This document shows positions 5,178 through 18,878 of a stretch of DNA of 64,000 nt, one piece after another. Numbering within the stretch: the stretch's first letter is position 1; the number at the start of each line of letters is the position of its first letter. The notes beneath the pieces are model-generated. The model had not been told where the DNA came from, searched no databases, and saw nothing but the letters and a program-made list of their open reading frames with translations. A program made the position numbers and the translations under genes. The DNA comes from an uncultured Clostridia bacterium (GTDB taxonomy: Bacteria > Bacillota > Clostridia > Christensenellales > Aristaeellaceae), in assembly GCA_947631405.1 (NCBI GenBank), contig CANRLC010000003.1:1-64000 (forward strand). The letters run 5' to 3'.

Positions 5178-7286
5178 ATGCACACGCTGATCGTCGCGGA
5201 AAAGCCGTCCGTCGCGCGGGACATCGCCCGGGTGGTCGGCGCGAAGGAGCGGGGCGACGGGTGCCTGCTGGGCGGCGGCTACGTCGTCAGCTGGGCGCTC
5301 GGGCATCTGGTGACGCTCAAGGAGCCGCAGGAGCTGGACGAGCGCTACGCCCGCTGGCGCGCCGAGGATCTGCCCATCCTGCCCGCGCAGATGCAGACCA
5401 AGGTCATCCCCAAGACGCGCAAGCAGTTCACCGTTTTGAAGCGCCTGATGAACGACAAGGAGACGGAGAGCATCGTCTGCGCGACCGACTCCGGCCGCGA
5501 GGGCGAACTGATCTTCCGCTATATCTACGAGCAGGCGGGCTGCCGCAAGCAGGTGCGCCGCCTGTGGATCTCGTCCATGACGGACGAGGCCATCCGCGCG
5601 GGGTTCGAGAGCCTCGCGCCGTCCTCGCGCTACGACGCGCTCTACCGCAGCGCGCGCTGCCGCGCCGACGCCGATTGGCTGATCGGCATGAACGCGACGC
5701 GCGCGTTCACGCTGCGCTACGGCGTGCTGCTGAGCGTCGGCCGCGTGCAGACGCCGACGCTCTCCATGCTGGTGAAGCGGCGGCGCGAGATCGACGCCTT
5801 CACGCCGCAGACGTACTACACCGTGCGCGCGGACTTTGGAGACTACAAGGGCGTCTACATCGACGCAAAGGGCGAGCGGCGCGTACAGGACGAGGCCGCG
5901 GCCCGCGCCATCGCCGCGCGCGTCAGGGGACAAGAGGGCCGCGTCGTCGAGGCGACGCGCGAGCGCAAGAGCGAGCGAGCGCCCCAGCTGTACGACCTGA
6001 CCACCCTCCAGCGCGAGGCGAACGCCCAGCTCGGCTTCACGGCCAAGCGCACGCTCGCGCTGGCGCAGAAGCTCTACGAGGAGCGCAAGCTGCTCACCTA
6101 CCCGCGCACGGACAGCCGCTATCTCTCCCACGACATGGTGGGCAAGGTGAAGCAGGCGCTCGCCGCCTACGAGGGCGAATTGGCCGAGGTGGGGCGGCAG
6201 GCGCTCGCCTTCGGCGTCAAGCCGACGCGGCGCGTGTTCGACGACGCCAAGCTGACCGACCACCACGCGATCATCCCCACGGGCAGGCGCGCGGCGGGCA
6301 TGGCGCTCGCGGCGGACGAGCGCGCCCTCTACGAGATGGTCGCGCGCAGGCTGGCGGCGGCGTTTTATCCCGACTTTGAATACGACGCGCTGCGCGTGGT
6401 GACCGCCGTGGGCGAGGATCGCTTCGCGAGCGCCGGGCGCAGCGTCGCGCAGGAGGGCTGGAGGGCCGCCGAGCGGCGCGCGCAGGCCGAGCGTAAAAAG
6501 GCTGAGGACGACGAGACGCAGCCGCTGCCGCCGCTCGCGCCGGGCGACGCGCGCGCCTGCGCCCGGGCCGAGGTAAAGCGCGAGCAAACCAAGCCGCCGC
6601 GCGAGCACAACGACGCGTCGCTCTTGCGGGAGATGGAGCGCGCCGGGCGGCAGATCGAGGACGAGGCGCTGCGCGACTGCGCGCTGGGCACGCCCGCGAC
6701 GCGCGCGGCGATCATCGAGCGGCTGATCGAGGTCGGCTACGCGAAGCGCTCGGGCAAGAGCCTGATCGCCACGCCCAAGGGCGTACATTTGATCGACGCC
6801 GTGCCGCCGGAGATCGCCTCCCCGGAGATCACGGGCCGCTGGGAGCGCGCCTTGGAGGAGATCGCGCGCGGCGGCGAGGGCGAGGCGCGCTTTCGCGAGG
6901 GCATCGCGCGGATGGCCGCGTTCCTCGTCGAGCGCGCGCACACCGCGCCGGACGTCCCCTTCGAGCCGGAGGCGCGCAAGGGCCGCGCGGGCAAGCCGCG
7001 CGTCAAGCCGCTCGATCTCCCGTGCCCGCTGTGCGGACAGGGCCGGGTGGCGGAAAACAGCAAGTCGTTTTACTGCACGCGCTTTCGCGAGGGGTGCGCG
7101 TTCACCCTGTGGAAGGACGCGCTCGTGCGCGGGGGCGGGCCGCCGCTCACCGCGAAGCTGGTGACGCTCTGCCTGCAAAAGGGCGACGTGCGCGGCTCCA
7201 CGGGCGTGGTGCGCTACGCGCAGGGGCGCGTGTCGTTTGAAAAGAATCCCGCCGCGGCGGATCGCCGGGCGGATGAAAGGTCGTGA
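5178..7286 (+). CDS. topB: DNA topoisomerase III (type IA)
   Basis: MHTLIVAEKPSVARDIARVVGA, CATDSGREGELIFRYIY, SVGRVQTPTLSMLV, C-terminal Cys motif CPLCGQGRV. Confidence 0.95.
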   Translation: MHTLIVAEKPSVARDIARVVGAKERGDGCLLGGGYVVSWALGHLVTLKEPQELDERYARWRAEDLPILPAQMQTKVIPKTRKQFTVLKRLMNDKETESIVCATDSGREGELIFRYIYEQAGCRKQVRRLWISSMTDEAIRAGFESLAPSSRYDALYRSARCRADADWLIGMNATRAFTLRYGVLLSVGRVQTPTLSMLVKRRREIDAFTPQTYYTVRADFGDYKGVYIDAKGERRVQDEAAARAIAARVRGQEGRVVEATRERKSERAPQLYDLTTLQREANAQLGFTAKRTLALAQKLYEERKLLTYPRTDSRYLSHDMVGKVKQALAAYEGELAEVGRQALAFGVKPTRRVFDDAKLTDHHAIIPTGRRAAGMALAADERALYEMVARRLAAAFYPDFEYDALRVVTAVGEDRFASAGRSVAQEGWRAAERRAQAERKKAEDDETQPLPPLAPGDARACARAEVKREQTKPPREHNDASLLREMERAGRQIEDEALRDCALGTPATRAAIIERLIEVGYAKRSGKSLIATPKGVHLIDAVPPEIASPEITGRWERALEEIARGGEGEARFREGIARMAAFLVERAHTAPDVPFEPEARKGRAGKPRVKPLDLPCPLCGQGRVAENSKSFYCTRFREGCAFTLWKDALVRGGGPPLTAKLVTLCLQKGDVRGSTGVVRYAQGRVSFEKNPAAADRRADERS

Positions 7287-7290
7287 CCGG

Positions 7291-7770
7291 ATGCTTTACG
7301 CCGAAACGGACATCCTGCAAAACAAGGCGCGCATGAAGCGCGAGGCGCGCCGCGCGGCGCTGCTGGCGCTGCCCATGCTGGCGCTGGCCATAGCGGGCTT
7401 TCTCATCCGCTCGCAGCCGCTGTGTCTGGCGGGTGCGCTGCTGTGCGGCGGCGTCCTCATCTTCTTAGGCGATCTGCGCGTCGCGCCGCTGTGGCGCTAC
7501 GGCAAGTTCCTGCGGGAGATCACGGGCGGGCTTTCCCACAAGACCGCCGGGACGCTCGTGCGGCTGGGCGAGGAGCCGGTCTTCGAGGACGGCGTGTGGA
7601 TGCGCGAGTGCATCCTCAACATCTACGAGGATCAATCCGAGGAGGGCGAACGCCGCTTTCTGCTCGACTGCGCGAAGACCCTGCCGGACGGCCTGCTCGG
7701 GCGCGACGTGGCGCTGACCAGCCACGGCAACGCCGTGCTGGGCGTCGAGCCGCTGGGGAGCGCGTCGTGA
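7291..7770 (+). CDS. hypothetical membrane protein
   Basis: ORF with two TM segments, overlapping the next gene start. Confidence 0.55.
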   Translation: MLYAETDILQNKARMKREARRAALLALPMLALAIAGFLIRSQPLCLAGALLCGGVLIFLGDLRVAPLWRYGKFLREITGGLSHKTAGTLVRLGEEPVFEDGVWMRECILNIYEDQSEEGERRFLLDCAKTLPDGLLGRDVALTSHGNAVLGVEPLGSAS

Positions 7771-9107
7771 GCGTCTGGGAGCGCGCGTGGGGCGCGCTGG
7801 CGCGGCTCTACGACAAGGGGCGCGTGCGCGCGCTGCTGTTTGCCGGGCTGCTCCTGCTCATCGGCGCGACGATGCTTTTGCTCAACCTGCACACGCCTCT
7901 GCAGATGGACGACTACGATTACCGCATCAGCTGGGCGACGGGGGAAAGCGTACACGGACTGGCGGATGTGATCGCCTCGCAGGCGGCGCATTACCGGCTC
8001 TGGGGCGGGCGCAGCGTCGTCCACGCGATCGCGCAGCTCTTTTTGCAGGCGGACAAGCGCGTCTTCGACGTCTTCAACACGCTGGCGTACTTGGCGCTGC
8101 TGCTGGAGATCTACGCGCTTTGCAAGCGGCCCGGCAGGCGCTTTTGCTTTTCGCTGCTGCTGGCGGCGCACGCGGCGCTGTTCTTCCTCGTGCCGTTCTT
8201 CGGGACGGCGTTTTTGTGGCTGACGGGCGCGTGCAACTACCTCTGGGGCACGGCGCTGGCGCTGCTGCCGCTGCTGCTGCTCCGGCGCGGGCGCGCATGG
8301 CCGCCGCTGGCGTTTCTGTGCGGCCTGATCGCGGGCTGGACGAACGAAAACACCGCGCCGGCCGTGCTGGCGCTGGTCGCGCTGCGCGTCTTTGCGGACG
8401 CGCGCAAGGGCGAAAAACCGCGCGCGTGGCGTCTTGCGCTGCTCGCCGGGCAGGCGACCGGCATCGCGCTGATGCTGCTGGCCCCGGGCAACTTTGCGCG
8501 GGCCTCCGGCTACGCGGCGGAGGGATCGCCGGCGGCGGAGCTTCTTGCGCGCCTGCTGCGCGCCGCCGCCTACGGCGTCGTCTATCTGGGGCTGCTCGCC
8601 GTCGCCGCGCTGCTGCTCTCGGGCCTGCTGCGCGAGGCGGACTTTGACGCCCGGCGCGCCCGGGCGCTCTGGCTGTTTGCCGGGGCGGCGATCGCCTCCG
8701 CGGCGATGATCGCCTCGCCCGTGTTGTCCGACCGCTCCTACACCGGGGCGTTCGCCCTCGCGCTGGCCGGGGCGCTCACGCTGCTTTCCGACTTCGAGGC
8801 CTCCGCGACGTCGATGGCCCCGGCGCGGATGGCGGCGCTGCCGCTGGCCGTCTGCCTGATGCTCTACGGCGGCTACGGCGCGCTGCGCGACGTGACCGCG
8901 CACGAGGATGCGTGGAACGCGCAGCTCGCGCGCGCCGAGGCGGCGATCATCAGCGGGGAGGACGAGGCGACGCTTTCCAGCGTCCCGTCCCATTCGCGCT
9001 TTACGATGGACATCGCGCTGAGCGATGACCCGGCGCTCTGGCCCAACGCCGCGCTCTCCCGCGCGCTGGGGATCGCCGTGCGCGGGGAAGGCGCGATCGC
9101 GCCGTAA
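7767..9107 (+). CDS. DUF6056-like multi-TM membrane protein
   Basis: GTG at 7767 with ATG/TGA-type overlap; MDDYDYRISWATGE...YRLWGGRSVVHAIAQ...WLTGACNYLWGTAL...GWTNENTAPA. Confidence 0.65.
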   Translation: MSVWERAWGALARLYDKGRVRALLFAGLLLLIGATMLLLNLHTPLQMDDYDYRISWATGESVHGLADVIASQAAHYRLWGGRSVVHAIAQLFLQADKRVFDVFNTLAYLALLLEIYALCKRPGRRFCFSLLLAAHAALFFLVPFFGTAFLWLTGACNYLWGTALALLPLLLLRRGRAWPPLAFLCGLIAGWTNENTAPAVLALVALRVFADARKGEKPRAWRLALLAGQATGIALMLLAPGNFARASGYAAEGSPAAELLARLLRAAAYGVVYLGLLAVAALLLSGLLREADFDARRARALWLFAGAAIASAAMIASPVLSDRSYTGAFALALAGALTLLSDFEASATSMAPARMAALPLAVCLMLYGGYGALRDVTAHEDAWNAQLARAEAAIISGEDEATLSSVPSHSRFTMDIALSDDPALWPNAALSRALGIAVRGEGAIAP

Positions 9108-9143
9108 AATTCGCGCGCGGCCGCCGATCGGCGCGATTTTGCC

Positions 9144-9172
9144 TTGACAATTTGCGCAAGGTTCACTATAAT
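9144..9172 (+). promoter_or_regulatory. sigmaA-type promoter
   Basis: TTGACA-17 nt-TATAAT, perfect consensus, upstream of the 9217 lipoprotein gene. Confidence 0.85.
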
Positions 9173-9216
9173 GAAGCGGTATGTTGCCATCTTTGGCCGA
9201 AAGGATGTAAAGAACG

Positions 9217-10764
9217 ATGAAAAAGGGCTTCGCGCTGCTCGTCATGCTGCTGGCGCTGCTGCTGCTCGCCAGCGGCTGCAATCTGGTCGGTTATGACGAG
9301 GCGCTCGATAACGCGCAGGTGGTCGCCACCGTCAACGGCACGGACGTGACCAAGGCGGAATGGCTCGTCTACCGCGACTATATGGCCAACTATTACCAGC
9401 AGTATTATCAGCAGACCTACGGCGTGAACCTGCCGCTGGACGACGAGACCCTCGCCAACTACGGCGACTCCGCGCTGGAGGAGATGATCGAGTCCATCGT
9501 GCTGGAGGACAAGGCCGAGGAGCTGGGCTTCCTGCCGCTGAGCGACGAGGAGGCCGCCGACGCCGAGGCCCATGCCGACTCGATGGTCGATCTCTACAAG
9601 CAGCTCGTGCGCTATCAGGACTTCCCCGGCATCGAGACGGTGGAGGAGGAGTACGCCCGCCTGACCGCGACGCCGGACGAGGCGAGCGAGGCGACGCCGG
9701 ACGAGGCGTCCGAAGCCACGCCGGACGAAGCGACGCCGGATGAGGCGACGCCCGCCGAGCCGCAGCCCACGCCGACCATCGCGCCGGAGGATCTGACCGC
9801 CACCATCACCGACGCCGAGCTGGACGCGATGATCACCGAGCGCATGGAGGCCTACGGCTACACGCGCGACTACTTCATCCAGTCCGAGACGATGGACGTG
9901 CAGAACGACAAGCTGCGCGAGTACGCCATCGCCGACGTGTCGGTGAGCGACGACGAGGTGCGCGCCAAGTTCGACAGCCTCGTGGAGTCCCAGAAGACCA
10001 GCTACGACGCGACCCCGACGCTCTACGCCACGGCCGTGAACAACGGAAGCGACGTGTACTACGCGCCGGAGGGCTATCGCGGCGTGAAGAACCTGCTCAT
10101 CGGCCTCGAGGACGACGATCAGGATGCGCTCAATGAGCTAAACAGCACGCTTACCACCGCGCAGAGCATGCTCACCAGCGTGCAGGGCCAGCTCGACGAC
10201 CTCGACGCGGAGGACACCTCCGAGTACGACGAGGAAGCGCTCGCCGCCTATCAGGAGCAGAAGGACGCGCTGACCGAGCAGAAGGCCGAAGCCGAGGCGA
10301 CGATCGCCGACACGCAGAAGCAGATCGATGAGACGACCGAGGCGGCGTTCGCCAAGGTGCTGCCGCAGGCCGAGGAGGCGCTCGCCAAGGCGCAGGCCGG
10401 GGAAGACTTTGACGCGCTGATCGAAACCTACGGCGACGACTCCGGCATGAGAAGCGAGCCGGCCAAGACGCAGGGCTACCTGATCTGCGACGGCCTGTCG
10501 CTCTATGTGCCCGAGTTCCAAGACGCCGCGATGGCGCTTGAAAACGTGGGAGACATCTCCGATCTGGTGAAGACCGACTACGGCTACCACATCCTCAAGT
10601 ATGAGATGGACATCCCGTCCGGCGCGGTCGAGTACACCGACGAGATCGCCGAGGATCTGAAGGGCGACATGCTCACCGAGGCGCAGGACGCTGCCTATGA
10701 GGCCGCCGTCACCCAGTGGGTCTCCGAGGCGGATGTGAAGACCTATCCCAAGCGGATGAAGTAA
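9217..10764 (+). CDS. PrsA/SurA-like peptidylprolyl isomerase lipoprotein
   Basis: lipobox LLASGC; N-terminal SurA-like NGTDVTKAEW; parvulin-like C-terminus DLVKTDYGYHILKYE. Confidence 0.75.
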   Translation: MKKGFALLVMLLALLLLASGCNLVGYDEALDNAQVVATVNGTDVTKAEWLVYRDYMANYYQQYYQQTYGVNLPLDDETLANYGDSALEEMIESIVLEDKAEELGFLPLSDEEAADAEAHADSMVDLYKQLVRYQDFPGIETVEEEYARLTATPDEASEATPDEASEATPDEATPDEATPAEPQPTPTIAPEDLTATITDAELDAMITERMEAYGYTRDYFIQSETMDVQNDKLREYAIADVSVSDDEVRAKFDSLVESQKTSYDATPTLYATAVNNGSDVYYAPEGYRGVKNLLIGLEDDDQDALNELNSTLTTAQSMLTSVQGQLDDLDAEDTSEYDEEALAAYQEQKDALTEQKAEAEATIADTQKQIDETTEAAFAKVLPQAEEALAKAQAGEDFDALIETYGDDSGMRSEPAKTQGYLICDGLSLYVPEFQDAAMALENVGDISDLVKTDYGYHILKYEMDIPSGAVEYTDEIAEDLKGDMLTEAQDAAYEAAVTQWVSEADVKTYPKRMK

Positions 10765-10781
10765 AAACCAAAACACGCGAC

Positions 10782-10816
10782 GCGGGCCGCTCTCCAGACG
10801 GAGGGCGGCCCGCTTT
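10782..10816 (+). terminator. Rho-independent terminator
   Basis: GCGGGCCGCtCTCC-agac-GGAGgGCGGCCCGC-TTTT. Confidence 0.85.
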
Positions 10817-10872
10817 TGACTGCCGCGGCTTGCGCCTTGCAAAAATTTTTTCACAAATTTCCAAAAAGCGTA

Positions 10873-10898
10873 GAAAACCCCGCCCTTTCTCTCGTCTA
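10873..10898 (+). promoter_or_regulatory. candidate ECF-type (autoregulatory) promoter, copy 1
   Basis: gaaaac...CGTCTA, conserved with copy 2; spacing slightly shorter than the classic ECF spacing. Confidence 0.45.
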
Positions 10899-10903
10899 AA
10901 TCT

Positions 10904-11458
10904 ATGGAGGGCCAAATTTGGAAAGAAGGTGAGCCGCACTTGGACGCGAACAAAGGGCAAGACGGCGAGCGCGAGCGGGCGGTTACCGCGCTCGTCGAGC
11001 GATACCAGACGGGGCTGCGGCGCGTGTGCTACGCCATCCTGAAGGATGAAGAGGCCGCAAACGACGCCGTGCAGGAGACGTTTCTCAAGGCGTACCGGGC
11101 GATGGATTCCCTCCGCGGGGAGGGCAGCGAGAAAGCGTGGCTGACGCGCATCGCCGTCAACACCTGCCGCGACATGCGCCGCACGGCGTGGTTTCGCCGC
11201 GTCGACCGCCGCGTGGAGATCGAGGACTTGCCGCTGGCGAGCGAAGCGCCCAGCGAGGAAAACGCCGAACTGGCGCTCGCCATCCTGCGCTTGCCGCGAA
11301 AGCTGCGGGAGGCGGTGCTCCTTTATTACTACCAAGATTTGACCCTGCGGGAGACGGCGCAGGCGCTGGGCGTCTCGACGGCCACCGCGTCAAAGCGGAT
11401 TCGCAGCGCGCACGCGCGGCTTCGCGACCTGCTGGAAGGGAGGGATTCTCGTGAATAA
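10904..11458 (+). CDS. ECF RNA polymerase sigma factor, copy 1 (true start may be TTG 10940)
   Basis: ALVERYQTGLRRVCYAILKDEEAANDAVQETFLKAY (region 2), LREAVLLYYYQDLTLRETAQALGVSTATASKRI (region 4). Confidence 0.92.
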   Translation: MEGQIWKEGEPHLDANKGQDGERERAVTALVERYQTGLRRVCYAILKDEEAANDAVQETFLKAYRAMDSLRGEGSEKAWLTRIAVNTCRDMRRTAWFRRVDRRVEIEDLPLASEAPSEENAELALAILRLPRKLREAVLLYYYQDLTLRETAQALGVSTATASKRIRSAHARLRDLLEGRDSRE

Positions 11459-13055
11459 GCGCCAAGACGCAGAAAAGATCCGGCGCGCACTCGACGCGTC
11501 CCTCTCCGGCCTGCAGGACGATCCGTGGCTCGCGCAGCGCGTCGTTGCCGCGGCGAAAGGAGAAAAGAAAGTGAAAAAGAAGATTTCTGTCGGTTTGGCC
11601 GTCGCGCTCGTCCTCGCGATGCTCGCGGCGACGGCGCTCGCCGTGGGGATGATGAACTACTTCTCCGGCTTTGCAAAGCTGGAGAACGAGTATGGCGAGT
11701 ACGAGCAGTGGCCGGGCAGCGCGAAGGTACAGCTTGTCGAGCTGATGCTGGAATGTGGCATGCTGAATGACGAAGATACGCCGCAGTGGACGGACGATCT
11801 GACGGGCGAGGCAAAGGAGGCCGCCGCCGAAGAGATTCTCGGCGCTTATTTCGATGGCATGATTTATGTGGACACTTATAACGCGATGGTTCGCGTCCTC
11901 GGCCCCATTGAGCAGTGGACGGATGAACAGCGCGTGATGTACACGGAATTGCTGGAGAAGTATGGCAAATTAACCGATAGCTGGCCTGTGTTCCAGCTTC
12001 CGGGCAAGGACGATTTGACCCGTGAACAGGCCGTGGAGCGGGCAAAGGAAGCGCTGCTGAACGTTTTCTCTTTGGACGCGGAGTATCTCGACAGCCTGCC
12101 TGTAGATGCGCTTTTCCGTGCTGAAATAAATGAGTTTGGCCTGCCCGAAGACGAGCCTTTCTGGACTGTCGAGATTGGCTACGGCGATACTGGACACTGG
12201 GTACACATGAAGCGCAATGGCGAAATCGTCGCTTTGTCTGTGCCGGGCAGCTCCTATGTCTACTGGGGAGAAGACATTCTTGATCGCGCCAAGATTGTGG
12301 AACCGGACGAACATGATGCGACCCGTGAGGAAGCGATTGCGAACGCTCGTCATTCTCTGACGGAGGTCATGAACCTGTCCTCCGATGATGTGGACGCGAT
12401 GACTGCCACAGCGCAATTCTTCTATCACGAGCGCTATGCGCACGGAAATGAACCCATATGGCTTGTAAACTGGAGCCGTGACGGTGAAATCCTTTATCGC
12501 GTACTGCTTGGCTATGACGGCAGTCCCATCGATGTGGAGCCGTCCGGCAAGCAATTCGACGTGACGAACCGCACGGAACTCACCCTCGGCGATCTGTGGC
12601 GCGAACAGTGCGAAGGCTTCGGTTTCAACGCTGCTCTGGACGACCGCGCGGGCGGATTCTATTATTGGTGGTCGCTAGAGGATAAGGCGCGCTTGTACGA
12701 AGTGATGGCGCCGATCGTTGCGGAATATGCAGCGACGCACCCTTACCTGAGCGAGAATGAACCCTACTGGCAGTGGACAAGAAACGTCAGCAGCATTCCC
12801 GCAAACAATGCAATCTCTCAGGAAGCTGCATTTTCAACCGCTATGGAAGCCATGACGGAGATCGTGGGGGAACGCCCCGATATTTCTCAGGTGGGCGTGT
12901 TCTATTACACGACGAAGTCGGAAAGGCCCGAATGGCGTTTCGCATACCGTTTAGCGGGCGTTGCCATCGACGCAAACAGCGGCGATATTCTCTTTCAGAA
13001 GGAATTCTCGCAGTCGTATGACATTGGTGATTTCTTGGCTGAAATCATTCCATAA
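11451..13055 (+). CDS. membrane-anchored anti-sigma-like protein with PepSY-like ectodomain, copy 1
   Basis: overlaps sigma gene; single TM KKKISVGLAVALVLAMLAATALAVG then ~460 aa ectodomain with PepSY-like repeats. Confidence 0.7.
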   Translation: MNKRQDAEKIRRALDASLSGLQDDPWLAQRVVAAAKGEKKVKKKISVGLAVALVLAMLAATALAVGMMNYFSGFAKLENEYGEYEQWPGSAKVQLVELMLECGMLNDEDTPQWTDDLTGEAKEAAAEEILGAYFDGMIYVDTYNAMVRVLGPIEQWTDEQRVMYTELLEKYGKLTDSWPVFQLPGKDDLTREQAVERAKEALLNVFSLDAEYLDSLPVDALFRAEINEFGLPEDEPFWTVEIGYGDTGHWVHMKRNGEIVALSVPGSSYVYWGEDILDRAKIVEPDEHDATREEAIANARHSLTEVMNLSSDDVDAMTATAQFFYHERYAHGNEPIWLVNWSRDGEILYRVLLGYDGSPIDVEPSGKQFDVTNRTELTLGDLWREQCEGFGFNAALDDRAGGFYYWWSLEDKARLYEVMAPIVAEYAATHPYLSENEPYWQWTRNVSSIPANNAISQEAAFSTAMEAMTEIVGERPDISQVGVFYYTTKSERPEWRFAYRLAGVAIDANSGDILFQKEFSQSYDIGDFLAEIIP

Positions 13056-13106
13056 AAGAGGCGAGGGCGCTGTGTGCTATCACAGTCTGTCAAAGACCTG
13101 ACGCCG

Positions 13107-13200
13107 TCCATCGGCCTCGTTCGCCCAAGCATGACCTGCGCCAGCCTCATTCGGAGATGGAAGCGGCCACCGGCTGCCCGCCAGCCCAAAATGAACCGCA
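13107..13200 (+). repeat. dispersed copy of the 94-bp repeat
   Basis: tcggcctcgttcgcccaagcatgacctgcgccagcctcattcggagatggaagcggccaccgg matches units at 15469-15828. Confidence 0.85.
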
Positions 13201-13265
13201 GTTTTTTCCCCGAAAGTTTTCCCCCCAAAACCGTAAAAACCCCGCCCTTTCTCTCGTCTAAATCT

Positions 13266-13820
13266 ATGGAGGGCCAAATTTGGAAAGAAGGTGAGCCGCA
13301 CTTGGACGCGAACAAAGGGCAAGACGGCGGGCGCGAGCGGGCGTTTACCGCGCTCGTCGAGCGATACCAGACGGGGCTGCGGCGCGTGTGCTACGCCATC
13401 CTGAAAGATGAAGAAGCTGCAAACGACGCCGTGCAGGAGACGTTTCTCAAGGCGTACCGCGCGATGGATTCCCTCCGCGAGGAGGACAGCGAGAAAGCGT
13501 GGCTGACGCGCATCGCCGTCAACACCTGCCGCGACATGCGCCGCTCGGCGTGGTTCCGCCGCGTCGACCGCCGCGTGACGATCGAGGACTTGCCGCTGGC
13601 GAGCGACGCGCCCAGCGAGGAAAACGCCGAACTGGCGCTCGCCATCCTGCGCTTGCCGCGAAAGCTGCGGGAGGCGGTGCTCCTTTACTACTACCAAGAT
13701 TTGACCCTGCGGGAGACGGCGCAGGCGCTAGGCGTCTCGACGGGCACCGCGTCGAAGCGGATTCGCAGCGCGCACGCGCGGCTGCGCGACCTGCTGGAAG
13801 GGAGGGGTTTCTGTGAATAA
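13266..13820 (+). CDS. ECF RNA polymerase sigma factor, copy 2 (TTG start possible at 13302)
   Basis: same length as copy 1 and nearly identical protein; constant 2362-bp offset. Confidence 0.92.
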   Translation: MEGQIWKEGEPHLDANKGQDGGRERAFTALVERYQTGLRRVCYAILKDEEAANDAVQETFLKAYRAMDSLREEDSEKAWLTRIAVNTCRDMRRSAWFRRVDRRVTIEDLPLASDAPSEENAELALAILRLPRKLREAVLLYYYQDLTLRETAQALGVSTGTASKRIRSAHARLRDLLEGRGFCE

Positions 13821-15423
13821 GCGCCAAGACGTCGAAAGAATCCGGCGCGCGCTCGACGCGTCCCTCTCCGGCCTGCAGGACGATCCGTGGCTCGCGCAGC
13901 GCGTCGTCGCCGCGGCGAAAGGAGAAAAGAAAGTGAAAAAGAAGATTTCTGTCGGTTTGGCCGTCGCGCTCGTCCTCGCGATACTCGCGGCGACGGCGCT
14001 CGCCGTGGGGATGACCCGATACTTTTCCAGCTTTGCGGCTTTGGAAAACACCTACGGCGAGTACGAACAGTGGCCGGGGAGCGCGAAGGTCGAATTGGTT
14101 CAGACCATGCGCGAGAGCGAGCTGCTTTCGCAAGCGCAGGCTAAAGGATGGGACAAGGCGCAATCTGAGCGCGAAAAGGAAAAACTTGCCGAGCAGATTC
14201 TTGGAGATTACTTTGAGCGCTTAGTGAATGTGGACACCTATAACGTGATGCTTCAGCAGTTGGGGCAATTCGAGGATTGGCCGCAGGAAGAAAAGGCGCT
14301 GTACAGCTCCCTGCTGATCGAGTACGGCGTACAGAAGGACGATTGGCCGGTCTACCTGATGCCGGAGCAGGGCGATATGCAGCAGGACGAGGCGATACAG
14401 GCGGCGAGGGAAATCCTGTGCGAAAAGTTTATGGCGAATGAGCGGATTAAGGCCGCAAACGCGCGCGCGACGTTTCTTCAAAACGCCATGGAATACGGGG
14501 AGGCCCCGGTCTGGATTGTGGAATTGACCGAACCGAATCTGTTCTCCGGCGCGTACCGGGTCATTCTGGAGAGAAGCGGCGAGGTGCGGAGCTACGACGC
14601 GCCGGGCACGCTGCCCTATACCGCGGGCAAGGAGGAGGATATTCCGGCGGATGCGGAGATCGTGCAGCCCGGCGAATACGACCTGTCCTACGAGGAGATC
14701 GAGCGGATCGCGTGGGACAGCATACGGGAGATTGGGGACTTTGAAACGCGGATGCAGCGGATGACGCTCGACGCGGTATTCCTCTATGACGAGCGCTATA
14801 ACGATGGATGCGAACCGGTTTGGCTGGTCAGCTTCAAGGAAAACGGGGCGCAGGTGTACCGGATGCTCTTTGGTTACGACGGCGCGTATATCGACGGCGC
14901 ATTTGAAGGGTGCGAGTTTGAAAGGACGGCGCGGGATGACTGGGAGATCGACGCCAAATTTGATTTGGATTTTGCCTACTACACCGTGGAAGAGAAGGCC
15001 GCGTTCACGCAAAAGTGGAAGCCGTTGGTGGACGCCTATTGCCAGAGCCATCCCTACTATCCGAATTATAACAGCTTCTGGTATAAGGCTACGCGGCAGG
15101 TTTACGGGGTGCCGGGCGACGGGGACATCTCGCAGGAGGAGGCGACGCGCATCGCGAAGGAGGCCCTTATGGAGGAGGGACTGAGAGAGGAGACCATGGA
15201 TGACCGAAGGATTGCGTATACCTTTGACGTGACCGATCCCGAACAGCCCATCTGGAAACTCATGCTGTATCCGGTTCCGTTCGAGGCGCGGGACGACGCA
15301 TCGCCCGTTTCAGACCATTACAGCTATCAGGTCATCATCGACGGCGAGACCGGGAGCGTGCTGCACATCTACTGCAATTCGGATATGAGTCCGGACAGAA
15401 AGATCACAATATTCAACATGTGA
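13813..15423 (+). CDS. membrane-anchored anti-sigma-like protein, copy 2
   Basis: first ~65 aa near-identical to copy 1; ectodomain diverged. Confidence 0.7.
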   Translation: MNKRQDVERIRRALDASLSGLQDDPWLAQRVVAAAKGEKKVKKKISVGLAVALVLAILAATALAVGMTRYFSSFAALENTYGEYEQWPGSAKVELVQTMRESELLSQAQAKGWDKAQSEREKEKLAEQILGDYFERLVNVDTYNVMLQQLGQFEDWPQEEKALYSSLLIEYGVQKDDWPVYLMPEQGDMQQDEAIQAAREILCEKFMANERIKAANARATFLQNAMEYGEAPVWIVELTEPNLFSGAYRVILERSGEVRSYDAPGTLPYTAGKEEDIPADAEIVQPGEYDLSYEEIERIAWDSIREIGDFETRMQRMTLDAVFLYDERYNDGCEPVWLVSFKENGAQVYRMLFGYDGAYIDGAFEGCEFERTARDDWEIDAKFDLDFAYYTVEEKAAFTQKWKPLVDAYCQSHPYYPNYNSFWYKATRQVYGVPGDGDISQEEATRIAKEALMEEGLREETMDDRRIAYTFDVTDPEQPIWKLMLYPVPFEARDDASPVSDHYSYQVIIDGETGSVLHIYCNSDMSPDRKITIFNM

Positions 15424-15436
15424 TGACGAAGGCGTC

Positions 15437-15462
15437 CCCCAAAAAAGGCGGGGACGCTTTCG
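15437..15462 (+). terminator. terminator-like hairpin
   Basis: GCGTCCCC...GGGGACGC followed by tttc. Confidence 0.5.
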
Positions 15463-15468
15463 CCGCCC

Positions 15469-15828
15469 GTCGGCCTCATTCGCCTAAGTATGACCCGCTC
15501 CAACCTCATTCGGAGTTGGCGGCGGCCACCGGCCGCCTAGCGCAAAGGTTTAACCTCAGACCGTCGGCCTCGTTCGCCCAAGCATGACCCGCTCCAACCT
15601 CATTCGGAGTTGGCGGCGGCCACCGGCCGCCTGGCGCAAAAGATTAACCGCAGACCGTCGGCCTCGTTCGCCCAAGCATGACCTGCGCCAGCCTCATTCG
15701 GAGATGGAAGCGGCCACCGGCCACCCGGCGCAAAGGTTTAACCTCAAACCGTCGGCCTCGTCCGCTCGAGCTGGCATAGCAAACGACTTGTTCGGAGATG
15801 GAAGCGGCCACTGGCCGCGCCGCCCGCC
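15469..15828 (+). repeat. tandem array of imperfect 94-bp repeats (3 full units + 1 degenerate)
   Basis: units start at 15469, 15563, 15657, 15751 with GTCGGCCTC[AG]T[TC]CGC; period exactly 94. Confidence 0.93.
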
Positions 15829-15877
15829 AGCACGTTTGGAGGGAGTGGCGCATAGGATAGCGCGAGGAGGGATGCGC

Positions 15878-16024
15878 ATGGGATGGTGCGGCGGCAAGCG
15901 GCTCGCAGGCGCGCTGCTGGCGCTGGCGGGGATATTGCTGGTGTTCCTTTGCCTGCCCATGCAGTTCTTTTTGATCGTGCTGGGCATCGCGCTCGCCGCG
16001 GCGGGACTGCTGCTGCTCAGGTGA
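15878..16024 (+). CDS. 48-aa two-TM small protein
   Basis: ggagg SD 8 nt before ATG 15878; MGWCGGKRLAGALLALAGILLVFLCLPMQFFLIVLGIALAAAGLLLLR. Confidence 0.5.
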   Translation: MGWCGGKRLAGALLALAGILLVFLCLPMQFFLIVLGIALAAAGLLLLR

Positions 16025-16041
16025 CGGAAGGGGGCGAAAGG

Positions 16042-16125
16042 GTGAGCGTGCGAATGATCTGCATCCGCGCGCCGCGCTTTGTGCGCGCGCTGCTGCGGCT
16101 TTTCAGCGGAGGAAAGGCGGAATAG
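16042..16125 (+). CDS. spoVM: SpoVM-like 27-aa amphipathic sporulation peptide (candidate)
   Basis: MSVRMICIRAPRFVRALLRLFSGGKAE resembles SpoVM (IKLPKFLGGIVRAML pattern, conserved Pro); adjacent to rpmB-asp23-fakA-recG as in Bacillus. Confidence 0.65.
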   Translation: MSVRMICIRAPRFVRALLRLFSGGKAE

Positions 16126-16130
16126 GCAAA

Positions 16131-16161
16131 AAAGAAGGGGGGAGATAAACCCCTTCTTTCT
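16131..16161 (+). terminator. terminator hairpin
   Basis: AAGAAGGGG...CCCCTTCTTT. Confidence 0.65.
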
Positions 16162-16166
16162 GCTTC

Positions 16167-16256
16167 ACACCTTTGGGGATGCGGGGCGCTGCCCCGCCGC
16201 CCCGCTTAGGGGCTTTCCGATCGCCCCTAAGAACCCTTCGGTGCCACAACCTTTTA
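16167..16256 (-). repeat. family-1 hairpin element, copy A (core)
   Basis: reverse complement of ccgaagggttcttaggggcgatcggaaagcccctaagcggggcggcggggcagcgccccg. Confidence 0.85.
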
Positions 16257-16349
16257 AGGTTAAATCGCTTTAGAGAATTATGCAAGATTGCGAGAAGGTT
16301 TTTGACAAACCGCAAAATCCCTCCATTATTATGTCCGACAAGATAAAGC

Positions 16350-16376
16350 AAAAGCGGCGGAAATCCCGCCGCTTTG
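16350..16376 (-). terminator. terminator of rpmB
   Basis: AGCGGCGGaaatCCGCCGCT hairpin with minus-strand T-rich tail. Confidence 0.65.
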
Positions 16377-16395
16377 AGCTTTTCTTGACCGGGTC

Positions 16396-16587
16396 TTACA
16401 GCGCGCGCTCCACCTTGCCGCTGCGCAGGCAGCGGGTGCAGACGTTCATATGGCGAACGGAGCCGCCGACGTTGACGCGAACGCGCTGGGTGTTCGGCAG
16501 CCAAACGCGATTGGTCTTGCGGTTGGAGTGGCTGACGTTGTGGCCGCTCATGGCGCCCTTTCCGCAGACCTCACAGATCTTTCCCAT
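16396..16587 (-). CDS. rpmB: 50S ribosomal protein L28
   Basis: [38 protein letters not shown]. Confidence 0.96.
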
Positions 16588-16813
16588 CATCACACCTCCT
16601 TTTGGTGCGCAAACAGTCATAACACGATGATTGTAGCACTTTTAAGCCCGAAAGGCAAGCGTTTTTGAAATTTTATCCCGAAATTCTTTGGAAGGAAAAC
16701 CCGCCGCGGGCTTTTTTTCCGGAATCCTTGTAAAAAACGCCGATTTCCTGTATACTGTATGTCGATCCATCGAGTTTTCGGGCCGCGAGGCCCTGCGCAA
16801 GGAGGATTTGTTC

Positions 16814-17164
16814 ATGGAATGCAAAATCAAGAACGATCTGGGTCAGATCACCATCAGCGAGGACGTCCTGCTCAAGGTTGCGGGCTACGCGGCGCTGGAG
16901 TGCTACGGCATCGTGGCGATGTCCAGCAAGCGCGCGAAGGACGGCTTTGTCGAGTGGCTGGGCCGCGAGAATCTCACCAAGGGCGTGCAGATCAACGTCA
17001 CGAACGACGGCATCGACATCGACCTGTTCATCATCGTCGAGTACGGCATCTCCATCGTTGAGGTCTGCAACATCATCAAGTCGCAGGTCTGCTACAAGAT
17101 CGAAAACATGGCCGGCGCCAAGGTGCGCAAGGTGAATATCTCGGTCGAAGGCATCCGCGTGTGA
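16814..17164 (+). CDS. Asp23/Gls24 family envelope stress response protein (YloU-like)
   Basis: GQITISEDVLLKVAGYAALECYGIVAMSSK...GIDIDLFIIVEYG. Confidence 0.9.
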   Translation: MECKIKNDLGQITISEDVLLKVAGYAALECYGIVAMSSKRAKDGFVEWLGRENLTKGVQINVTNDGIDIDLFIIVEYGISIVEVCNIIKSQVCYKIENMAGAKVRKVNISVEGIRV

Positions 17165-17186
17165 TGCCGTCTGGGAGGCGAATGAT

Positions 17187-18878
17187 TTGTCACAGAAAAC
17201 GATAGACGGGCTGCTTTTGAAGGAAATGCTCATCGCGGGCGCGGGCCTGCTGGAAAACAACCGCGAGGCCATCGACGCGCTCAACGTGTTCCCCGTGCCC
17301 GACGGCGATACGGGCACCAATATGTCCCTGACCATGAAGTCCACCGTCCGCGAGATCGCCGCGCAGGATCTGCCCGACGCGTCCCGGCTGGCCGACCTCG
17401 CCGCGCGCGGGGCGCTCAAGGGCGCGCGCGGAAACTCCGGCGTCATCCTCTCGCAGATTCTGCGCGGCTTCGCGCGCGGCATCGAGGGCAGCGCCGAGAT
17501 CGACGCGGCGCTCTTTGCGAAGGGCCTGCGCTCCGGCGCGGAGACCGCCTACAAGGCCGTGATGAAGCCCAAGGAGGGCACCATCCTCACCGTCATCCGC
17601 GTGATCGCCGAGGACTCCGCGCGCTATGTCCAGAAGAACCCCGACAACCTGCCGGGGCTGCTGGATAAGGTCATCCGCAGCGGCGAAAAGATCCTCGAAA
17701 AGACGCCGGATATGCTGCCCGCGCTCAAGCAGGCGGGTGTGGTCGATTCGGGCGGGCAGGGTCTGCTCACCGTGCTCAAGGGCTGGCGCGCCGCGTTCAA
17801 CGGCGAAAAGATCGAGGAGACCGCCGTCGCCGTCGGGGACGCCGCGTCCTTCGAGTTCGAGGACGACCACGACGCGCTAGAGGAGATCAGGTTCAAGTAT
17901 TGCACCGAGTTCATCATCCAAGAGATGAACCCGGGCGTCACGCAGGACGACGTGAACCGCTTCCGCACGCGGCTGACCCGCATCGGCGACTGCGTGGTCG
18001 TCGTCGGCGACTTCTCTCTGGTCAAGGTGCATGTACACACCAACGACCCCGGCAAGGCGCTGCAATACGCCTGCGAGCTGGGCGAGCTGGTCAACCTCAA
18101 GATCGACAACATGGCCGAGGAGCGCCGCGAGCGCCAGCGCATGGCGGAGGCCGCCAAGCGCGACGCAGAGCAGGCCGAGGCCGCGCCGCAGGACGGCGGC
18201 GACGCCCCGCAGGCGGAGGAGAAGCGCTACGGCATGGTCGCCGTGTCGCTGGGCGAGGGATTCTCCGGCATCTTCAGCGACCTCGGCGTCGATCACATCG
18301 TCGAGGGCGGGCAGACGATGAACCCCAGCATCGAGGACATTCTGGGCGCGGTGGACGCCGTGGGCGCGAAGACCGTCTTCGTGCTGCCCAACAACTCCAA
18401 CGTCATCCTCGCCGCGTCGCAGGCGGCGGAGCTGTCCGACCGCGAGGTGATCGTGCTGCCGACCAAGAACGTGGCGATGGGCATCGGCGCGGTGATCGCC
18501 TTCAACCCCGAGGCCGACGCGCAGGAGAACCGCGAGGCGATGACGCAGGCGGCCGAGCAGGTCAAGACCGGACAGATCACCTTCGCCGTGCGCGACACCG
18601 TCTTCGAGGACAAGGAGATCAAGGAAGGCGACATCATCGGCATCCACAACGGCCGCATCGAGGAGATCGGGCAGGACATCCACGACATCGCGCTGGAGCT
18701 GGCCCGCCACGTCGTGGAGGACGGCGATTCGCTGATTACCGTCTACTACGGCGAGGAGACGAAGGAGGAGGACGCAAGGCGTCTGGGCGACGAGCTGGCC
18801 GAGATGTTCTCCGACCTCGACGTCGAGGTGCAGTACGGCGGCCAGCCGCTCTACTACTACCTGATCGCCACCGAGTGA
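17187..18878 (+). CDS. fakA: DAK2 domain fatty acid kinase catalytic-like protein (FakA/YloV)
   Basis: LNVFPVPDGDTGTNMSLTM, RGARGNSGVILSQILRGFA; TTG start. Confidence 0.9.
   Translation: MSQKTIDGLLLKEMLIAGAGLLENNREAIDALNVFPVPDGDTGTNMSLTMKSTVREIAAQDLPDASRLADLAARGALKGARGNSGVILSQILRGFARGIEGSAEIDAALFAKGLRSGAETAYKAVMKPKEGTILTVIRVIAEDSARYVQKNPDNLPGLLDKVIRSGEKILEKTPDMLPALKQAGVVDSGGQGLLTVLKGWRAAFNGEKIEETAVAVGDAASFEFEDDHDALEEIRFKYCTEFIIQEMNPGVTQDDVNRFRTRLTRIGDCVVVVGDFSLVKVHVHTNDPGKALQYACELGELVNLKIDNMAEERRERQRMAEAAKRDAEQAEAAPQDGGDAPQAEEKRYGMVAVSLGEGFSGIFSDLGVDHIVEGGQTMNPSIEDILGAVDAVGAKTVFVLPNNSNVILAASQAAELSDREVIVLPTKNVAMGIGAVIAFNPEADAQENREAMTQAAEQVKTGQITFAVRDTVFEDKEIKEGDIIGIHNGRIEEIGQDIHDIALELARHVVEDGDSLITVYYGEETKEEDARRLGDELAEMFSDLDVEVQYGGQPLYYYLIATE

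Follow-up and report, generated by a model that had tools for sequence, protein, structure and literature searches.

Two consecutive operons raise the question of how two nearly identical ECF sigma genes came to be joined to strongly diverged ectodomains, and what such a pair may do for the cell. They lie on the + strand of the 64,000-nucleotide stretch of DNA from an uncultured, gut-type Clostridia bacterium that we analysed (the window). The original prediction took them for a tandem duplication of an ECF sigma/anti-sigma module, and proposed gene conversion, recent duplication with ectodomain replacement, or diversifying selection as the cause of the difference. The features of the two modules, A and B, are as follows.

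10874 to 11652, + strand: putative recombined head of module A, running from the promoter through the sigma gene and the anti-sigma domain to the TM, from the maximum-likelihood tract
10875 to 10898, + strand: promoter-like element of module A (AAACC-N13-CGTCTA), shared without change by module B and a truncated third head
10940 to 11458, + strand: sigma factor A of the ECF type, probably starting at TTG 10940 within an ORF that opens at 10904, from Pfam, homology, and a ribosome-binding site
11451 to 13055, + strand: partner A, a putative anti-sigma membrane protein whose gene overlaps the stop codon of sigma (cytosolic codons 1–46, TM 47–65, A62-x-A64 site)
11649 to 13052, + strand: ectodomain A, with a juxtamembrane part that is helical and with PepSY-like repeats at roughly residues 191–263, 292–364, and 457–518
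13102 to 13180, + strand: intergenic repeat copy between the modules, from repeat comparison
13236 to 14014, + strand: putative recombined head B, from the maximum-likelihood tract
13237 to 13260, + strand: promoter-like element of module B, identical to that of A, from a motif search of the genome
13302 to 13820, + strand: sigma factor B of the ECF type, probably starting at TTG 13302 within an ORF that opens at 13266, from Pfam and identity to A
13813 to 15423, + strand: putative membrane anti-sigma partner B, from likeness to A and topology
14011 to 15420, + strand: ectodomain B, with its nearest relatives in other genera
15461 to 15821, + strand: four tandem copies of a 94-nt intergenic repeat after module B, from repeat comparison

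The two sigmas are ECF sigma factors: both possess Sigma70 regions 2 and 4 and no region 3, and the matches to Pfam Sigma70_r2 (5e-18 for sigma A), r4_2, and TIGR02937 are above cut-off. The sigma homologue of another genome of the same genus (G008) starts with MDVVKDPDG at the position where the window has TTG 10940 and 13302, behind GAAGGTGAG, and the sigmas therefore probably start at these TTG codons. The ATG codons at 10904 and 13266 are thus likely to be near the transcription start. The AAACC-N13-CGTCTA element has three matches in the 2.28-Mb genome, found only at head A, head B, and the truncated third head. Its AAC/CGTC resemblance suggests a promoter of the ECF type, with a spacing shorter than that of Bacillus ECF promoters.

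The sigma and partner genes of the two modules indeed share the predicted constant offset of 2362 bp. At this offset, a two-change-point maximum-likelihood fit delimited a head tract (10874–11652 versus 13236–14014) in which 750 of 779 bases match, leaving 29 mismatches. The support intervals of its edges are 10873–10876 on the left and 11648–11653 on the right, i.e., within 4 and 6 bases. The mismatch rate is 76% just left of the tract, where the sequences are unrelated at this offset, and 50% just right of it. The left edge lies about 30 bp 5′ of the sigma ORF, at the promoter-like element, and the right edge lies just past the TM helix of the partner, at partner codon 67. Within the tract, the mismatches are patchy; nine of them are bunched within 46 nt at the sigma–partner junction (p 0.002), and the longest perfect run is 94 bp. 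Most of the prediction agreed with these results: the sigma proteins, expected to differ at about ten residues, differ at 11 of 184 (94% identity), partner codons 1–66 are 95.5% identical, and the ectodomains are strongly diverged (37% identity). The near-identity extends from sigma through the TM as proposed, but it starts earlier, 30 bp upstream of the sigma ORF, and the promoter-like element falls within it. The ectodomain similarity was described as decaying; it instead drops in an abrupt step, which is followed by a weakly conserved juxtamembrane motif. The fit returned a sharp-edged tract and not the uniform divergence gradient that would have spoken against the prediction.

Each partner is a single-pass membrane protein, with a 46-residue cytosolic part, a TM helix at residues 47–65, and then the ectodomain, and its gene overlaps the sigma gene in the operon. 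The operon, the topology, and DUF4179-like relatives suggest an anti-sigma role. Searches of Pfam and NCBIfam gave no match to an anti-sigma domain in either partner. The cytosolic part, in which A and B differ at two residues, seems too short for the full four-helix class I anti-sigma domain (ASDI) fold, and the model confidence there is below 50. DUF4179 had weak sub-threshold matches in four relatives of the partners and no Pfam match in A or B; for this reason, we describe the partners as probably working like RsiV and do not count them as members of that group. The modules also fall outside the RsgI family, as their partners have no match to it in Pfam or NCBIfam and the sigma is ECF. In an alignment of 23 partners, Ala reaches 70% or more of the sequences in just two columns, those of an A-x-A at the TM end, and the recombined tract in the window ends three codons after them. 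TM ends are Ala-rich by nature, which weakens the argument from this site.

The AlphaFold model of ectodomain A (pLDDT 77) displays three repeats, each of a helix plus four strands. The best PDB match in Foldseek was the C-terminal domain of YpeB, a PepSY repeat protein of like fold (5boi, E 6.5e-4), with a low TM-score over the whole model, and the Pfam match to PepSY was weak and below cut-off. We know of no anti-sigma role for YpeB. Relatives of ectodomain B also occur as stand-alone, secreted-type proteins in two genomes (G065 and G125). Two such B-like ectodomains (L131:5854-7011 and L132:5221-6354) have a signal-peptide-like start, and no sigma match was found in the stretches around their genes.

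Synonymous divergence, which the original prediction had proposed to compare by domain, separates the two halves of the module. Between A and B, sigma has a dS of 0.077 and partner codons 1–66 one of 0.081, with a dN/dS of about 0.37 in the head, whereas the ectodomain is saturated (NG86 dS 2.8; pS 0.73). Synonymous differences amount to 14/189 in the head and 203/278 in the ectodomain (Fisher p 2e-49). Constraint or diversifying selection alone cannot make such a step in dS, and diversifying selection or domain-specific constraint as the sole cause is therefore rejected. In addition, the trees of the two halves conflict. The ectodomain tree pairs A with G216a, a protein from a different genus, as sisters (support 100/99), and a constraint uniting A with B is rejected (AU p 4.7e-5). 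In the sigma tree, A and B are sisters (100/100), and a constraint uniting sigma A with the G216a sigma is rejected (p 8e-7). The G216 module itself is about evenly diverged from A, with identities of 52% in sigma, 53% in the N-terminal part, and 49% (48–50%) in the ectodomain. The conflict argues that the head was copied between loci whose ectodomains were already distinct. The idea of a tandem duplication thus fails for the ectodomain, since A and B split before A parted from its relative in the other genus, while the alternative of gene conversion or head replacement is backed by the mutually conflicting trees. A sharp tract, a step in dS, and conflicting trees, the marks of gene conversion or head exchange, are all present at this locus. 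They give good support to the conclusion that an older ectodomain received its head (promoter, ECF sigma, anti-sigma domain, and TM) by copying or gene conversion. Two routes would fit: a head already in place may have been converted, or a head may have been transplanted to a different ectodomain.

A third copy of the head is present in the same genome as a 267-bp fragment (inside contig C24, 12913–13180; L077:4914-5180) with 95–96% identity to the head. It comprises the promoter-like element together with about 68 codons from the start of the ORF and is then cut off by other sequence. The fragment is a mosaic: its leader is A-like beyond the point where B stops matching, and it is B-like at all six of its coding sites that differ between A and B. 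It lies about 170 bp 5′ of another ECF operon on the same strand, and no terminator-like site was found between the two. As a speculation from this arrangement, sigma A or B might control that operon. Other elements flank the modules. The 94-nt intergenic repeat, with one copy between the modules and four in tandem after module B, has about 23 matches genome-wide and folds no better than shuffles, and Rfam gave no match in 9000–17500. Upstream of module A, 9217–10764 encodes a PrsA/SurA-like peptidyl-prolyl isomerase with ATPDEA-type repeats mid-protein.

The combination of alike heads and unlike ectodomains recurs in at least two other genomes (G008 and G082). The genomes compared are drafts, most of them apparently metagenome-assembled. 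In G008, a tandem pair has sigmas of 98% identity and ectodomains of 26% at best, one with a weak solute-binding match and the other PepSY-like. Its perfect DNA identity exceeds 500 bp and ends inside the cytosolic part. Both G008 sigma genes (L078:4189-4731 and 6942-7484) have the same in-frame TGA near region 2.4; this nonsense allele appears to have been duplicated or spread by conversion, and the pair may be inactive. Recoding of TGA was set aside, as most other sigma matches in G008 have no internal stop. In G082, a rabbit-gut MAG, six or more places carry a head with 90–100% identity to the query, and some contigs end inside heads. Between its contigs C76 and C91, identity per 50 bp falls from about 75–100% to about 30–50% at the TM end, giving 88% for sigma and 23% for the ectodomain. 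A truncated head on contig C57, resembling the third head described above, was dropped because it sits at the contig end. In a rabbit MAG, the sigma of a B-like module has an internal stop (L161:5321-5908), where the paralogue on L162 has Gln (DSAQDAM). The converse combination was found across genera: G088 and G082-C91 have ectodomains of 55% identity and sigmas of 39%, with no detectable match between their N-terminal parts. Taken as a pattern, the comparisons show that heads and ectodomains of this family have probably been exchanged in other genomes as well, at the membrane boundary or close to it.

Most of the tandem arrays examined lack homogenised heads: self-BLAST of the arrays in ten genomes (G019, G002, G216, G065, G120, G148, G160, G161, G183, and G209) found heads only about 62–80% alike. 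One 10.3-kb contig (L080; G002:C354) consists almost entirely of ECF sigma/partner modules in an array. A single-sequence search of the genome contigs with partner A gave no match; an alignment-based query gave 11 named loci, all in Clostridia/Bacillota MAGs.

The best reading of the locus is that two sensors feed a nearly interchangeable sigma. We consider it rather probable that the two adjacent ECF sigma/membrane anti-sigma operons, with a common head and different sensors, form a pooled two-input circuit that controls one regulon. The head exchange is well supported, and the shared output and the proteolysis are what we infer. The head was copied recently between the two loci by recombination, and the ectodomains are much older homologues from separate lineages. 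Each partner would hold sigma at the membrane, and each ectodomain, with its PepSY-like repeats, would sense its own cue. Signal peptidase would then make the site-1 cleavage at the conserved A-x-A, as for RsiV, and site-2 cleavage would follow, freeing sigma to fire the identical promoters of both operons (autoregulation). Since A and B hardly differ in sigma or in the anti-sigma domain, either partner could hold or recapture either sigma, resulting in the pooling of both inputs. The eleven sigma differences and the mismatch cluster at the junction could begin to insulate the two pairs.

The main competitor is that gene conversion keeps two old modules concerted without functional pooling, the head being homogenised as a by-product of repeat recombination and orthogonality being maintained through the small number of differences or through co-translation within each pair. 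The sharp tract with patchy mismatches and the mosaic third copy would be expected from such a process, and the overlapping genes favour pairing in cis. However, two differences in the first 46 residues and an identical promoter make insulation hard, and in three genomes the membrane boundary, or a point close to it, is where the tracts end; we regard this explanation as unlikely, though it deserves serious attention. The second copy could also be a decaying remnant under no selection, as the truncated third copy and the nonsense codon in both sigmas of the congener might indicate, but both operons in the window are fully open and the head dN/dS is about 0.37, making this quite improbable.

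Two further explanations have very little probability. A recent duplication of the entire module, with fast diversifying selection then acting on the ectodomain alone, would account for the homology of the ectodomains and the adjacent modules at a constant offset; it conflicts with ectodomain synonymous sites that are saturated, against a head dS of 0.08, and with an ectodomain A that is sister to another genus, A+B being rejected. An assembly artefact, in which reads from one head were placed at two loci, is conceivable in a draft assembly, given the identical run of more than 500 bp in G008 and the G082 contigs that end inside heads. In the window, 29 differences separate the copies, no perfect run exceeds 94 bp, and a single 109-kb contig contains both copies with distinct ectodomains, so that misassembly is hardly credible.

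The pooled circuit has counterparts among known systems. The closest in logic are the SigI/RsgI paralogues of Clostridium thermocellum (PMC12203970, PMC6056542). There, too, several operons each pair a sigma with a partner that has a cytosolic part, a TM helix, and a divergent sensor; the partner is an anti-sigma and sigma is released by proteolysis, as we propose for A and B. SigI is not ECF, however, and the RsgI sensors are mostly carbohydrate-binding, in contrast to the PepSY-like repeats of A and B. Furthermore, paralogous SigI factors recognise different, specialised promoters, avoiding overlap (PMC6056542), whereas the sigma and the promoter are nearly identical between A and B. SigV/RsiV of Bacillus subtilis (ECF30, DUF4179; PMC6066255) shares with A and B an ECF sigma, a single-pass partner (a putative anti-sigma in A and B), and a membrane-adjacent site of signal-peptidase type, predicted in A and B, that is followed by helices. 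In RsiV, amphipathic helices shield the site-1 signal-peptidase site, which lies in DUF4179 beside the TM (PMC6066255); RsiP is likewise cut by signal peptidase (PMC8844934). Modules A and B differ in the PepSY-like ectodomain without a DUF4179 match and in the head common to two sensors. The general mode of control would also be that of ECF factors with class I anti-sigma domains, in a survey of which extra domains were usually conserved within an ECF group (PMC7406223), unlike the same head on unrelated ectodomains in G008. A search of the open-access literature for gene conversion or domain shuffling in sigma/anti-sigma pairs turned up no account of near-identical ECF heads joined to different sensors.

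Paralogous sigma/anti-sigma pairs are normally thought to diverge until insulated, as argued for SigI (PMC6056542), and designers of ECF switches take freedom from crosstalk as a rule (PMC3817407). In modules A and B, the output half has been kept or made identical and only the sensor differs, with the exchange point at the membrane boundary. As a tentative and broader possibility, which we hold to be less likely than not to apply in full, ECF heads in this Clostridia family may be a recurrent exchangeable cassette with its boundary at a signal-peptidase-like site. Lineages would repeatedly re-wire new sensors, even secreted PepSY or solute-binding-like domains, onto one sigma output, forming pooled multi-input circuits and not insulated paralogues, and the truncated head would be a mobile promoter placing another ECF operon under the same sigma. 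If the pooled signalling proposed for A and B is true, it would be a natural route for bacteria to add inputs to an existing regulon, would be a warning for short-read assemblies, which such repeats break or confuse, and would provide a natural set of compatible sensor parts.
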